This document shows, one piece after another, positions 28,292 through 34,155 of a stretch of DNA of 64,000 nt (its first letter is position 1; each line of letters starts with the position of its first letter). The notes under the pieces are model-generated. The model saw only the letters and a program-made list of their open reading frames with translations, ran no database searches and was not told where the DNA came from. Source of the DNA: Shewanella subflava (GTDB lineage Bacteria; Pseudomonadota; Gammaproteobacteria; Enterobacterales; Shewanellaceae); assembly GCF_025971955.1 (NCBI RefSeq), contig NZ_JAPDMX010000033.1, forward strand, positions 124,001-188,000. The letters run 5' to 3'. Position numbers and translations under genes: made by a program.

Positions 28292-30247
28292 TTAAGGAAT
28301 TTGTTTTAAAAAGTGTAACGCACTATCTAAATCGCGTGTTCGATGCATTGGTGGTAAAGAATTGATAAATGCTTGTCCATAGGCACGATTGACAATGCGA
28401 TTGTCACATAGGATGAGTACCCCGCGATCTTTTTCATCACGGATCAACCGCCCTACCCCTTGTTTTAATGCAATAACCGCTTGAGGCAACGAAATCGCGA
28501 CAAATGGATCGCCACCTTGACGTTCAATATTCATCGCCCTTGCACGGTATAAAGCGTCATCTGGCGATATAAAAGGCAGTTTATCGATAATCACACAGCT
28601 CAATAGTTTGCCTCTTACATCAACACCTTCCCAAAAACTACCTGTGCCCAGCAAAACGGCATTGCCCAATTGCCGAAACTTTTTAAGTAAACTTTGTTTG
28701 CTTGCTTGTCCTTGAACGAGTAACGGATAACTTACTTGGCTGCGCAATAAACTGGCGACCTGTTCCAACATGCTATGGCTAGTGAATAGAATAAATGTGC
28801 GCCCCTGTGCCGCGTTAATAGCTTTCACACACACATCGACAAGTTGTTTAGCACTAAATGGTGTTTGACCCACTTTACCTAAATGTCTAGGGACACAAAA
28901 CATGGCTTGATTTGGGTAATCAAATGGACTGTCTAAAATAACTTGTGTCGCACGTTGTAGGCCTAATTCGTTAGCAAAATGACTCAGTTGGCGATTAACT
29001 TGTAAAGTAGCCGAGGTAAAAATCCAACTGGTTTCGGGATTGAATAATTGTTCACATTGCTTGGCAACATTGATTGGTGAAGCGCGTAGCGTAATAAATC
29101 TAGGCCCATACTCAACACTGTAGGCTGCATGCGGATCTTGGCATTCAAAAAATATTTTTAGCCTGTCTTTTAAACTATTAAGTTGCTCAAACGCCGTGTC
29201 TAGTTCGTCATCGCGCCCTAAGTGATGCGTCACTAGCTCACTTAATTCAACTAAAGATTGATGTAACGCCCATGAATCAATGATTAAAGATTTCGTTGCC
29301 AGAACTTGACGCCAATCAGTCTGAGCGCAGTCAAACATGGCATTATGCCAATGGGTTAATACGATGATGGCACGATTAGCTAAATGCTCTATTTGAATGC
29401 TGTCACGAATGTTGTTTTTATGAATAGAAATAAGCTGGTTAAGTAGTTTATCTATTTCTCGACTGCCAAGATGACTGCCAAAATAGCTGATGCAAATATC
29501 CGTAACCAAATGAGCTTCATCAAACACAACTACATCAGGATCTGGCAGCAGCTCCGCAAACCCAGTGTCCTTTAATAGTCTATCAGCAAAAAATAAATGA
29601 TGGTTTACCACAACAAGCTTTGCTTCCATCGCTTTTAAGCGGGCTTTTCGTGTAAAACATACATCGTAAAACGCACATTTTTTACCCGTACAGCTTTCTT
29701 TAGTACTCACCACGCTAGGAATTACTGTCGAGTGTTCTGACACTGAGGTTAAATTACCGATATCGCCATCTTTACTGAGTGTTGCCCATTGATTGATTTT
29801 TAATAAATCATCTAAAGCTTGCTCACGGTATTGGCTTGCATACTGCATTTGCTTGTCTAAACGAAGTTGGCATAAATAATTACTTCGACCTTTTAACAAA
29901 GCGATACGTGGTTTTATCTCCAGCATCGAAAGTAATGCAGGTAAATCTTTTAAAAACAATTGTTCTTGTAAGTTTTTACTCCCAGTACTCACCACAACTT
30001 GCTTACCACTTAATAATGCGGGAAGCAGATAAGCAAAGGTTTTGCCCACACCAGTACCCGCCTCTAATATTAAGTTTTTCTTTTTAACGATAGCTTCACT
30101 GACAGCGACAGCCATATCCGTTTGCACCTGGCGGCTACGATATTGGTGAACATGTCTTGATAAAGACCCACCTTCAGCAAACTCAGCAATCACAAGTGAA
30201 GTGAGGCTAGATAATTTGGCAGATATTTTGGGTTCAGTACTTAACAA
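28292..30247 (-). CDS. yoaA: DinG/YoaA-family ATP-dependent DNA helicase
   Basis: XPD-like superfamily 2 helicase. Walker A EAGTGVGKT, Walker B VVFDEAHLV, a four-cysteine iron-sulfur region (ESCTGKKCAFYDVCF) and helicase motifs GVGRLIRDEKDRGVLILCDNR at the C-terminus are clear. In E. coli YoaA works with HolC at stalled forks. The start is uncertain: TTG at 30313 would give 673 residues, TTG at 30247 gives 651, GTG at 30193 gives 633, and E. coli YoaA has about 636. None has an obvious ribosome site. I list the middle choice. Confidence 0.88.
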   Translation of the reverse strand: MLSTEPKISAKLSSLTSLVIAEFAEGGSLSRHVHQYRSRQVQTDMAVAVSEAIVKKKNLILEAGTGVGKTFAYLLPALLSGKQVVVSTGSKNLQEQLFLKDLPALLSMLEIKPRIALLKGRSNYLCQLRLDKQMQYASQYREQALDDLLKINQWATLSKDGDIGNLTSVSEHSTVIPSVVSTKESCTGKKCAFYDVCFTRKARLKAMEAKLVVVNHHLFFADRLLKDTGFAELLPDPDVVVFDEAHLVTDICISYFGSHLGSREIDKLLNQLISIHKNNIRDSIQIEHLANRAIIVLTHWHNAMFDCAQTDWRQVLATKSLIIDSWALHQSLVELSELVTHHLGRDDELDTAFEQLNSLKDRLKIFFECQDPHAAYSVEYGPRFITLRASPINVAKQCEQLFNPETSWIFTSATLQVNRQLSHFANELGLQRATQVILDSPFDYPNQAMFCVPRHLGKVGQTPFSAKQLVDVCVKAINAAQGRTFILFTSHSMLEQVASLLRSQVSYPLLVQGQASKQSLLKKFRQLGNAVLLGTGSFWEGVDVRGKLLSCVIIDKLPFISPDDALYRARAMNIERQGGDPFVAISLPQAVIALKQGVGRLIRDEKDRGVLILCDNRIVNRAYGQAFINSLPPMHRTRDLDSALHFLKQIP

Positions 30248-30407
30248 GGGGTTTGTGAATGCTCTTATAGATGGGTAAAAATGAAAATGACGGCATGAAT
30301 CAATGCAGACCAACTTAATATTAATGATACTCTAATTTAAATGCTAATTAACCTCAATTATGTTTTAGAAATGACTAATCGAAATTTAAATTGCCATCCA
30401 ATATCTT

Positions 30408-30620
30408 AGGGCGTGTTTATGTTTGTTGATAAATGATGCAGTAGGCTATTTTTCTATTACACAATCACAAACCTATTACCCCAATCACCACAAATAAGTT
30501 ATCAGAAATCGCCAACGAAAATGCATGATAATAAGACTGGTTTTTATGATAAATCATTATTCTACAATCGAAAAATCTAAAGCAGTGTTCACATATTTTA
30601 TGAAACTAGCACGAACAGTA
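30408..30620 (+). repeat. Dispersed repeat family 1, copy C (longest)
   Basis: Noncoding, in the 397-base gap between yoaA and rplT. It starts AGGGCGTGTTTATGTTTGTT then ATGATGCAGTAGG and continues into the core shared with 26677-26810 and, inverted, 4226-4410. The left end resembles that at 12918-12955. The inverted arrangement of this end sequence in the 4226 copy suggests terminal inverted repeats. No transposase frame seen. Confidence 0.6.
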
Positions 30621-30663
30621 TTTTATACGATGGGTATTTCATGAAATGGTTAACTTAGAGCCA

Positions 30664-30690
30664 TAAAAAAAGGAACCCGAAGGTTCCTCT
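30664..30690 (-). terminator. Intrinsic terminator after rplT
   Basis: On the minus strand AGGAACC-TTCG-GGTTCCT followed by a run of seven T's: a UUCG tetraloop hairpin (30671-30677 with 30682-30688). It ends the thrS-infC-rpmI-rplT operon. Confidence 0.93.
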
Positions 30691-30710
30691 TTTCAAAGCC
30701 GACTAACTAA

Positions 30711-31070
30711 TTACTTAGTTAAAGCTTCTTTTGCTTTTTCAACTAACGTTGCAAATACAACTTTGTCGAATACAGCGATGTCAGCCAAAATCTTACGATC
30801 GATTTCGATAGACGCCTTTTTCAAACCGTTGATGAAACGGCTGTAAGACAGACCATTTTGACGAGAAGCCGCATTGATACGTGCAATCCATAATTGACGG
30901 AATTGACGTTTCTTTTGACGACGGTCACGGTAAGCATATTGACCAGCTTTAGTTACTGCTTGAACAGCAACACGGAAAGTACGGCTACGAGCGCCATAAT
31001 AACCTTTAGCTAATTTAAGTACTTTTTTGTGACGAGCACGAGCGGTTACACCACGCTTAACTCTAGGCAT
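30711..31070 (-). CDS. rplT: 50S ribosomal protein L20
   Basis: Protein of 119 residues; starts [29 protein letters not shown] and contains [24 protein letters not shown], diagnostic of bL20. It is needed for early large-subunit assembly and in E. coli also represses its own operon. GGAGC precedes the ATG. Last gene of the operon, followed by a terminator. Confidence 0.98.
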
Positions 31071-31088: not shown

Positions 31089-31283
31089 TTAAGCGTATGG
31101 TAGTTGACGTGCAATTGCTGGCACATCAGACTTAGCTACTAAACATTTAGCACGTAAGTGACGTTTACGCTTAGTGCTCTTCTTGGTCAAAATGTGACGT
31201 AAGTGTGCTTGTTTACGCTTGAAACCATTAGCGGTTTTTCTGAAGCGCTTTTGTACACCCTTGTCTGTTTTCATTTTAGGCAT
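31089..31283 (-). CDS. rpmI: 50S ribosomal protein L35
   Basis: Protein of 64 residues, strongly basic, starting [30 protein letters not shown], as in bL35. GGAG lies before the ATG. It sits between infC and rplT in the standard order and 18 bases before rplT, where L20 autoregulation is known in E. coli. Confidence 0.98.
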
Positions 31284-31372: not shown

Positions 31373-31915
31373 CTATTTCTTTTTAGGTGCTAGCACCATA
31401 ATTGCTTGTCGGCCTTCCATTTTCGGGAAAGATTCAACAACCGCATATACTTCCAAATCAGCCTTGATACGGTTCAAAAGATCCATACCTAGGTTTTGGT
31501 GTGCCATTTCGCGACCACGGAAACGCAGCGTAATTTTCGCTTTGTCCCCATCTTCCAGAAAACGAATCAGGTTGCGTAGTTTTACCTGATAGTCGTTTTC
31601 ATCAGTGCCAGGACGGAATTTAATTTCCTTAACCTGAACCTGTTTTTGCTTTTTCTTTTGTTCTTTTTGGGCCTTAGCCTTATCAAAAAGGAACTTACCG
31701 TAGTCCATTATGCGACAAACTGGAGGCTCAGCATTAGGGCTGATTTCTACAAGGTCAACCCCTGCTTCATCTGCTATACTCTGGGCTTCTTTAATGCTAA
31801 CGATACCAATTGGCTCACCATCTAAACCCGATAAACGGACTTCAGGAACACCGGTGATTTCATCATTGATTCTATTAGGCGCTGGTTGTCGCCCTGCTGC
31901 TCTCTTGATCTTTAT
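31373..31915 (-). CDS. infC: Translation initiation factor IF-3, AUA start
   Basis: Protein of 180 residues, exactly the E. coli length. The first ATG-initiated frame begins only at 31708 ([10 protein letters not shown]), which would lose the whole N-terminal domain. The same frame is open upstream and encodes [19 protein letters not shown], the normal IF-3 start. GGAGG at 31924-31928 lies 8 bases before ATA at 31915 (ATC at 31909 would be 14 away), so ATA is the likely start. IF-3 discriminates against such codons, and this lets it repress its own gene as known for the AUU start in E. coli. The Shine-Dalgarno lies inside the end of thrS, whose stop is 3 bases before the ATA. Confidence 0.95.
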
Positions 31916-31918
31916 GAC

Positions 31919-33847
31919 CTATTCCTCCAACAATTTTAGACTACGGAGCGAAATCTGTTGACGTATCTTGGTAGCAAAATCTTCTAGTTTTAGCTTACCT
32001 AAATCGATACCGTCACGGGTACGCACCGCAACTTCCTTATTTTCCATTTCTTGATCACCTACGACCAATAAATAAGGCACACGTCTTAAGGTGTGTTCGC
32101 GTATTTTAAAGCCTATTTTCTCATTCCTCAAGTCAAAAGATGCACGAATGCCCTGTTCTTTGAAGAATTTAACGATTTCTTCAACGTATTCAGACTGTTT
32201 GTCAGTAATATTCATTACAACAACTTGCATTGGTGCAAGCCATGTTGGGAATTTACCAGCATATTCTTCAATCAAAATACCGAGGAAACGTTCTAACGAG
32301 CCTAAAATAGCACGATGGATCATTACCGGTGTTTGGCGACTATTGTCTTCAGCAACATAAGTTGCCCCTAAACGAGACGGTAACGCGTAATCTAATTGTA
32401 CAGTACCACACTGCCAAGCGCGATCTAAACAATCATGTAATGTGAACTCAATCTTAGGTCCGTAGAAAGCACCTTCACCAGGTAATATTTCAAATTCAAT
32501 ATTATTGGCTTTAAGCGCTTGCTTTAATGCTTCCTCTGCACGGTCCCACATATCGTCATCACCAATACGCTTTTCTGGGCGTGTAGATAATTTCACAACA
32601 ATGTTTTCAAAACCAAAGGTGGCATAAGTGTCATATACCATTTGGATACATGCACTCACTTCTTTTTGAACTTGATCGTCGGTACAGAAAATGTGTGCAT
32701 CATCTTGAGTGAACCCCCGCACGCGCATCAAACCATGCAGTGAACCTGATGGCTCGTTACGATGACAACAACCAAATTCAGCCATACGTAATGGTAAGTC
32801 ACGGTATGATTTAAGCCCTTGGTTAAATATTTGCACGTGACCAGGACAGTTCATTGGTTTAACGGCATATTCACGGTTTTCGCTTTTAGTGGTGAACATG
32901 GCTTCTGAGTATTTATCCCAGTGACCACTTCGCTCCCACAACACACGGTCCATCATTAATGGGCCTTTCACTTCTTGATAAGTGTATTGACCTAATTTTT
33001 GACGAATAAACTTTTCTAACTCTAAGAATAAGCTCCAACCATCGTTATGCCAGAATACCATTCCAGGTGCTTCTTCTTGCATATGGTACAAATCTAATTG
33101 TTTACCAATTTTACGATGATCACGTTTTGCCGCTTCTTCTAAACGGGTTAAATGTGTTTTAAGGGCTTTTTTGTCTGCCCATGCAGTACCATAAACACGT
33201 TGCAGCATTTTATTGTCAGAGTTACCACGCCAATATGCACCGGCAACACTCATTAATTTAAAATGTTGGCAAAAACGCATGTTAGGTACGTGTGGACCAC
33301 GACACATGTCGGTATATTCTTCGTGATGATATAATGCTGGAGTCGCATCTTTGCTGATGTTTTCATCTAAAATGGCAATTTTGTATTCTTCACCACGCTC
33401 GCTAAATACGTCACGGGCTTCTTGCCAAGATACAACACGCTTAACCACATCATAATTAGTTTTGGCTAAGTCCATCATACGTTTTTCTAACGCATCGATG
33501 TCTTCTTGAGTCAGTTTATGCTCTAAATCGATATCATAATAAAAGCCGTTATCGATAACAGGACCAATAGCCATTTTGGTTTGAGGCCATAATTGCTTAA
33601 TAGCATGACCTAATAAATGCGCACAAGAATGGCGAAGGATTTCAACACCCTCTTCATCTTTAGCCGTGATGATAGATAAATCCGCATCGGTAGAAATAAT
33701 GTCACAAGCGTCTTTTAATTCACCATTAACGCGACCAGCAATACAGGCTTTGGCTAAGCCTGGGCCGATATCTGCTGCAACATCGAGAGTCGATACAGGA
33801 TTGGCAAACTCACGTTTGCTGCCATCAGGCAATGTAATAATAGGCAT
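31919..33847 (-). CDS. thrS: Threonine--tRNA ligase
   Basis: Class II synthetase of 642 residues starting [14 protein letters not shown] (TGS domain); AAGGA lies 8 bases before this ATG, and an upstream start at 33877 is rejected. The editing domain holds [10 protein letters not shown] and a [16 protein letters not shown] segment near 175-190; motif 2 ([31 protein letters not shown]) and motif 3 ([19 protein letters not shown]) follow, then the anticodon-binding domain. It charges tRNA-Thr and clears mischarged serine. First gene of thrS-infC-rpmI-rplT. Confidence 0.97.
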
Positions 33848-34155
33848 GAAAATTCCTTGTCCAGTGGTGACCCACACGTAGGGCCACTTGGTGTAATGTA
33901 AAATGAGTGATAAACATTAATGAAATAAAGACAGTACAAGAGTCTTAATTACCCAAAAATGTAGCCGCCAATTGTATGTGACAACCTCAAGGCGGATCAA
34001 CCTTTAACATTCGTAAAAATCAACTCAGCACGTTTAATTTAATTCCTTGCACTGAATGCATATTATAAATTGACGACTATATTTATAAATGGCAGTCAAC
34101 CACATGAGATAATGGGTTGTGTTACCCATGCACCAAAGCGTTGAGGAGAAAAGGG
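33848..34155. other. thrS leader / intergenic region
   Basis: 308 bases between divergent genes. A hairpin CCGCC...GGCGG at 33965-33995 with an inner stem TTGT/ACAA could belong to a thrS leader, where E. coli uses a tRNA-like operator, but no anticodon-like resemblance was convincing. The ribosome site GGAG near 34143 belongs to the next gene. Otherwise nothing recognised. Confidence 0.4.

Follow-up and report, generated by a model that had tools for sequence, protein, structure and literature searches.

Evidence for a genus-wide AUA start codon of infC in Shewanella and its likely role in IF3 feedback

Where does translation of infC begin at this Shewanella locus, and could an AUA codon serve there for the same feedback by IF3 as the AUU start of E. 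coli infC? If open reading frames in the window (the whole 64-kb stretch of DNA that was analysed) are listed with only ATG, GTG, and TTG as start codons, infC appears as a 111-aa ORF from the ATG at 31708 and, because the start is placed at this codon, the N-terminal domain of IF3 is lost; a list made with all table-11 start codons gives a 180-aa infC ORF starting at ATA. The original prediction chose this ATA and described it as missed by standard gene finding. This holds for callers limited to ATG, GTG, and TTG, which truncate IF3 by its N-terminal domain at this locus and probably do so in many further genomes. In RefSeq, however, the annotated E. coli infC is 543 nt long, and its first codon reads ATT. 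The features on which the argument depends are the following.

31373..31915, minus strand: infC coding sequence (IF3, 180 aa) with ATA start, supported by the open frame, TIGR00168, and identity with E. coli IF3
31913..31915, minus strand: proposed ATA initiation codon of infC, present in 129/129 genus genomes and at 47/47 named Shewanella loci
31924..31928, minus strand: Shine–Dalgarno (SD) sequence GGAGG within the last thrS codons, 8 nt before ATA, by direct reading
31892..31954, minus strand: block conserved at the nucleotide level, covering the last 11 codons of thrS and infC as far as codon 8
31907..31919, minus strand: possible mini-hairpin GGUC-AUAAA-GAUC with AUA in the loop, predicted at -1.1 kcal/mol, weak evidence
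31919..33877, minus strand: thrS (threonyl-tRNA synthetase), upstream of infC, start as given in the ORF list
31089..31283, minus strand: rpmI (L35), the next gene, ATG start, from the ORF list, order as in E. coli
30711..31070, minus strand: rplT (L20), after rpmI, ATG start, from the ORF list, order as in E. coli

The start region of infC and its neighbourhood

Read directly on the minus strand, the start region is TTGGAGGAATAGGTC-ATA-AAG-ATC. The thrS gene ends in TTG TTG GAG GAA TAG, followed by GTC and then by ATA at 31915. Its stop codon TAG (31921-31919) is in frame with infC and 3 nt upstream of ATA; with the frame closed immediately ahead of GTC, the plausible starts within reach are GTC, ATA, and ATC. 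From ATA the frame remains open to the stop ending at 31373 and encodes 180 residues, so that the extension upstream of ATG 31708 that had been predicted is borne out by direct reading, by the ORF translation, and by the match with the NCBIfam model TIGR00168 (infC). This match covers residues 13-180 and profile positions 4-170 of 170 (E = 4e-82) and its score of 274.1 bits, against a cut-off of 60, places the product in the IF3 family; 134 of 178 aligned residues are identical with E. coli IF3. The GGAGG motif occupies 31928-31924 and is separated from ATA by a spacer of 8 nt (31923-31916), also as predicted. The SD duplex with the 14-nt 16S tail is computed at -9.7 kcal/mol for this infC and at -9.3 for that of E. 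coli, a small difference, the former value including GGUC paired by the duplex program to GAUC of the 16S tail and the latter being obtained without such pairing. An ATA codon with a strong SD at normal spacing (GGAGG, 8 nt) is the arrangement of an AUH-start infC.

The gene order thrS-infC-rpmI-rplT is that of E. coli. Beyond rplT the neighbourhood departs from it: pheST does not follow, a long ORF that looks helicase-like by eye lies at 28292-30711, and pheS is found on another contig (G000:C7:15744-16613). Elsewhere in the same genome, pcnB (L142, G000:C6:49042-53334) has an apparent ATT start (locus positions 1393-1398), where the sequence reads GAGGTG and then ATT ATT TTT CGC CGT; an in-frame ATG lies nine codons before the second ATT, with no obvious SD by eye. 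We take the N-terminus of L142 to resemble that of E. coli pcnB, a known AUU-start gene.

Conservation of the start within Shewanella

ATA is present at this site in all 129 genomes of the genus, the one studied here included. An SD followed by ATA was found once in each of them with a pattern that left codon bases 1 and 3 free, whereas the backward control pattern gave matches in 2/129; a stricter SD-start pattern, used before, had matched in 117/117 genomes, and its control gave 0 matches. Among the relatives, of which the best 80 of 537 were kept, 47 are named Shewanella loci with identities of up to 99%, which supports the assignment of this DNA to Shewanella; ATA is present in each of the 47. 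The alignment of infC starts proposed along with the original prediction is therefore uniform at the very codon for which AUA had been claimed, and the flanking triplets vary. In S. marina (L033) and in another genome with the same start region, possibly of the same species (G616), the triplet preceding ATA is GCT and codon 3 is TTT; ATC takes the place of GTC in S. morhuae and S. glacialipiscicola.

These variants weigh on the possibility that infC translation begins elsewhere, at ATC 31909, at GTC 31918, or, giving a short IF3, at ATG 31708. Both ATC and GTC are close to ATA, and GTC is the real start of Streptomyces sigR (PMC5472188). However, the distance from GGAGG to ATC is 14 nt, and S. 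marina has TTT instead of this ATC but keeps ATA; GTC gives way to GCT in S. marina and to ATC in both S. morhuae and S. glacialipiscicola; and a start at ATG 31708 would remove the N-terminal domain of IF3. We consider initiation at any of these codons very unlikely. Since ATC 31909 and GTC 31918 vary and ATC is so distant from the SD, ATA 31915 is, on this alignment, the sole candidate both well placed and invariant. A sequencing error or chance change in a gene that truly starts at ATG would require a single base only (A to G), but 129/129 genus genomes agree, other lineages also have AUA, and at least 16 changes between AUA and the remaining codons are needed on the wider tree described below, so that this explanation is already contradicted and its probability practically nil. 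As far as sequence comparison can tell, the AUA start is real and genus-wide, and we infer that initiation actually takes place at AUA 31915.

The codon belongs to a block constrained at the nucleotide level. In 46 Shewanella, synonymous variation is absent from 7 of the 10 scorable columns of the final 11 thrS codons, compared with 14/168 further upstream (Fisher p ~1e-5, relatedness ignored); L033 was left out of these columns because its thrS could not be aligned without gaps. On the infC side, codons 2, 3, and 7 are invariant in the 46 Shewanella, which makes 3 of the 7 codons from 2 to 8 (p 0.02 when compared with the thrS background, relatedness ignored). Part of this constraint is the SD. 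The nearly frozen synonymous sites of thrS (31922-31954) include ATT TCG CTC CGT AGT, well upstream of it. Nucleotide-level conservation around the start could also partly preserve ATA for other reasons.

The possible mini-hairpin with AUA in its loop lies inside this block. A 4-bp stem is found in 46/47 Shewanella, and S. marina has a different stem of 7 bp, both arms being changed with pairing still possible. A 7-bp stem is reached by ~0.3% of shuffled flanks and one of at least 4 bp by ~10%. Stems of at least 4 bp occur in 43/254 non-Shewanella loci (17%, against the ~10% of shuffled flanks), an excess in related loci, which is not convincing for a start-in-loop hairpin as a feature of the phylum. 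The hairpin is only a weak lead, because stems of this length also occur in shuffles and other loci and because Shewanella represents one lineage; that it might, together with translation of thrS to 3 nt before AUA, tune the response of infC to IF3 in Shewanella is a model that we regard as improbable. A promoter at 31961-31933, which would produce a near-leaderless infC mRNA, was rejected: it amounts to no more than a match to the consensus, the region contains 6 such matches where shuffles give 9.0, and relatives do not retain the second hexamer. No Rfam family was found at threshold within the 64-kb window.

infC start codons across Pseudomonadota

To place ATA in a wider frame, 312 infC loci of Pseudomonadota were read with one start caller, which weighed ATG, GTG, TTG, CTG, ATA, ATT, and ATC equally and picked the codon with the best SD duplex 3-11 nt away. 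It returned ATT 140, ATA 100 (47 of them named Shewanella), ATC 68, GTG 1, and ATG 1, with no call in 2, that is, an AUH start in 308/312 loci. Applied to rplT and rpmI for comparison, this caller returned ATG in 184/186 and 171/186 control loci, respectively. The 312 loci were picked to cover families among the matches listed, not at random, and some genomes appear twice (e.g., L155 and L235); the IF3 model matched in 291/295 genomes of the order sample, 180/184 of the class sample, and 160/160 of the phylum sample. A first version of the caller had given ATT 144, ATA 96, and ATC 68; the tie rule was then changed, with a net gain of 4 for ATA (L011 among the changed loci). Where AUH codons are adjacent, as in the many loci of family f8 that read ATT ATT and in L068, L234, and L296, spacing decides which of them is called.

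The exceptions are few. The ATG call of L309 is probably a miscall, as an ATT after AAGGAA lies upstream, and the ATA called in L247 is probably not the true start, a second ATA fitting better. The loci for which no start was called, L140 and L141, come from tiny endosymbiont-like genomes, and one member of the class sample starts at GTG; because of these two loci and this GTG, an AUH start is not obligatory for infC. In family f24 (L139-L141, genomes of 0.2-0.3 Mb), one locus has ATT with a weaker SD; in the other two no SD could be called and an ATG lies nearby. These very reduced genomes look as though they were losing the feedback start.

Among the loci of the order that carry genus codes, 78 genera divide into ATT 63, ATA 13, and ATC 2, none of them mixed; the 95-row tree of the order is a quick one, with 37/92 inner branches open. 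The named loci of Ferrimonas are mixed, with ATA in F. balearica (L049) and ATT in F. senticii (L050), which could make them a natural test pair within one named genus. The thrS-infC junction on a contig titled Marinobacter nauticus DP3N21-5 (L051) is nearly identical to that of F. balearica L049, and this genome is possibly mislabelled. A tree of 279 rows, without 31 of the 47 named Shewanella loci and without the two uncalled ones, and with L309 recoded by hand from ATG to ATT in this analysis only, requires at least 30 start-codon changes, 16 for AUA versus the rest, compared with 109-124 after 20 shuffles of the labels; a single row (GTG) is canonical. If a canonical codon and either of the other AUH codons were equally likely, the probability of no more than one canonical outcome among 30 would be ~8e-5, a rough value because parsimony gives a minimum, the rows are non-random, and the canonical GTG row differs at the first base too.

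The start has thus been kept non-canonical over evolution, in 129/129 genomes of the genus and in all but one of the 279 rows. Among the loci sampled, infC seems to be held off NTG starts while AUU, AUA, and AUC interchange, and this avoidance of NTG fits the known IF3 feedback loop. Going by the start calls, AUA is neither exceptional nor rare for infC. The expectation that AUA is a far rarer start than AUU is only loosely true of this gene, given AUA in 13/78 genera of the order and in 100/312 loci.

IF3 feedback and comparison with known systems

The simplest account of these observations would be that the feedback loop of E. coli operates here, AUA standing where E. coli has AUU. AUA pairs with the CAU anticodon of the initiator tRNA at two positions only, and IF3 disfavours 30S complexes carrying such imperfect codon-anticodon pairs; plentiful IF3 would then lower initiation at its own mRNA, and translation would rise when IF3 is scarce. 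This reading is helped by the persistence of non-NTG starts, the C-domain arginines in common with E. coli, the ordinary initiator tRNAs, and the canonical anti-SD. All eight arginines aligned to E. coli R99, R112, R116, R129, R131, R133, R147, and R168, which we take to be residues used in start discrimination, are kept in Shewanella IF3; E. coli Y75, also a residue affecting start discrimination, is F, which counts against the feedback reading. The 16S rRNA of this genome ends in GGATCACCTCCTTA, with a canonical anti-SD. The 20 stretches scanned for tRNA genes, which hold 49 of them as against 60 matches in the genome, contain 7 CAU tRNA genes, five with the standard initiator features (CAU and the GGG/CCC stem) and 2 without. 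With five standard CAU initiators and an ordinary 16S end, nothing unusual was found to decode AUA, and the CAU tRNA genes of the 20 stretches lend no support to special AUA decoding by an unusual initiator. In a defined in vitro system, more IF3 led to a smaller share of full-length product for pairs mismatched at the third base, including AUU/CAU (PMC10158994).

The AUA start might also be real and do no more than apply a constant brake to yield, with initiation kept low to match need and no meaningful feedback by IF3. Such a brake finds some backing in S. aureus, where non-canonical starts of three non-infC genes yielded ~10% of the AUG reporter in poor medium and, for one of the three, up to 30% in rich medium (PMC13009471). 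However, the gene held off NTG is precisely one whose product senses start-codon pairing, rplT of the same kind of loci uses ATG in 184/186, and the IF3 C-domain arginines are conserved, so that we judge a brake of this kind unlikely. Negative feedback by IF3 at AUA is most likely in Shewanella, and the interpretation offered by the original prediction is probably right. Taken as a whole, the scheme in which infC is translated from AUA 31915, positioned by a strong SD in the 3' end of thrS, with E. coli-like IF3 feedback, appears highly probable from the sequence evidence. Our result suggests that the feedback start of IF3 is more than a peculiarity of AUU in enterobacteria, and the interchange of AUU, AUA, and AUC predicts that IF3 senses a failed third-position pair and not a particular codon.

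The E. coli gene is the closest point of reference. Work by Butler (1986/1987) and Sacerdot (1996) reportedly established its AUU start and the translational autocontrol by IF3; the first codon of the RefSeq gene indeed reads ATT, as the original prediction stated, in the layout GGAGG-AATAAGGT-ATT. Shewanella shares with E. coli the gene, its order thrS-infC-rpmI-rplT, GGAGG with an 8-nt spacer, and a start one base from AUG, but has AUA where E. coli has AUU, and the codons after the start also differ (AAGATCAA versus AAAGGCGG).

Non-canonical infC starts are known well beyond E. coli. According to published reports, infC starts at ATT in Xanthomonas and Yersinia (with peptides upstream of the annotated start), in Listeria, and in B. 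subtilis, and at ATC in Streptomyces (PMC5559785, PMC3091656, PMC13068326, PMC1805508, PMC5472188). These genes resemble that of Shewanella in their non-canonical starts, misannotated in some genomes, and differ from it in having ATT or ATC and not ATA. One of these papers mentions a misannotation of IF-3 found in Gupta et al. 2007, a reference given there for work on Shewanella as well (PMC3091656), so the N-terminal extension of IF3 may already have been seen in Shewanella by mass spectrometry. None of the papers listed in a search of the literature was seen to describe AUA for Shewanella infC, and we make no claim of novelty on that ground.

The nearest parallel for the codon itself is S. 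aureus infC, for which the study cited above reports initiation density at AUA by Ribo-Ret and a suggestion of autoregulation by its authors (PMC13009471). The same gene has the same AUA start in both, but S. aureus is a Firmicute, its authors predict an extended SD at non-canonical sites whereas Shewanella has the SD core GGAGG, and initiation at AUA is backed there by Ribo-Ret. The AUA-started infC of Shewanella is most likely one more instance of a familiar mode of regulation and not a new one, and an AUA start of this gene has already been reported in S. aureus.
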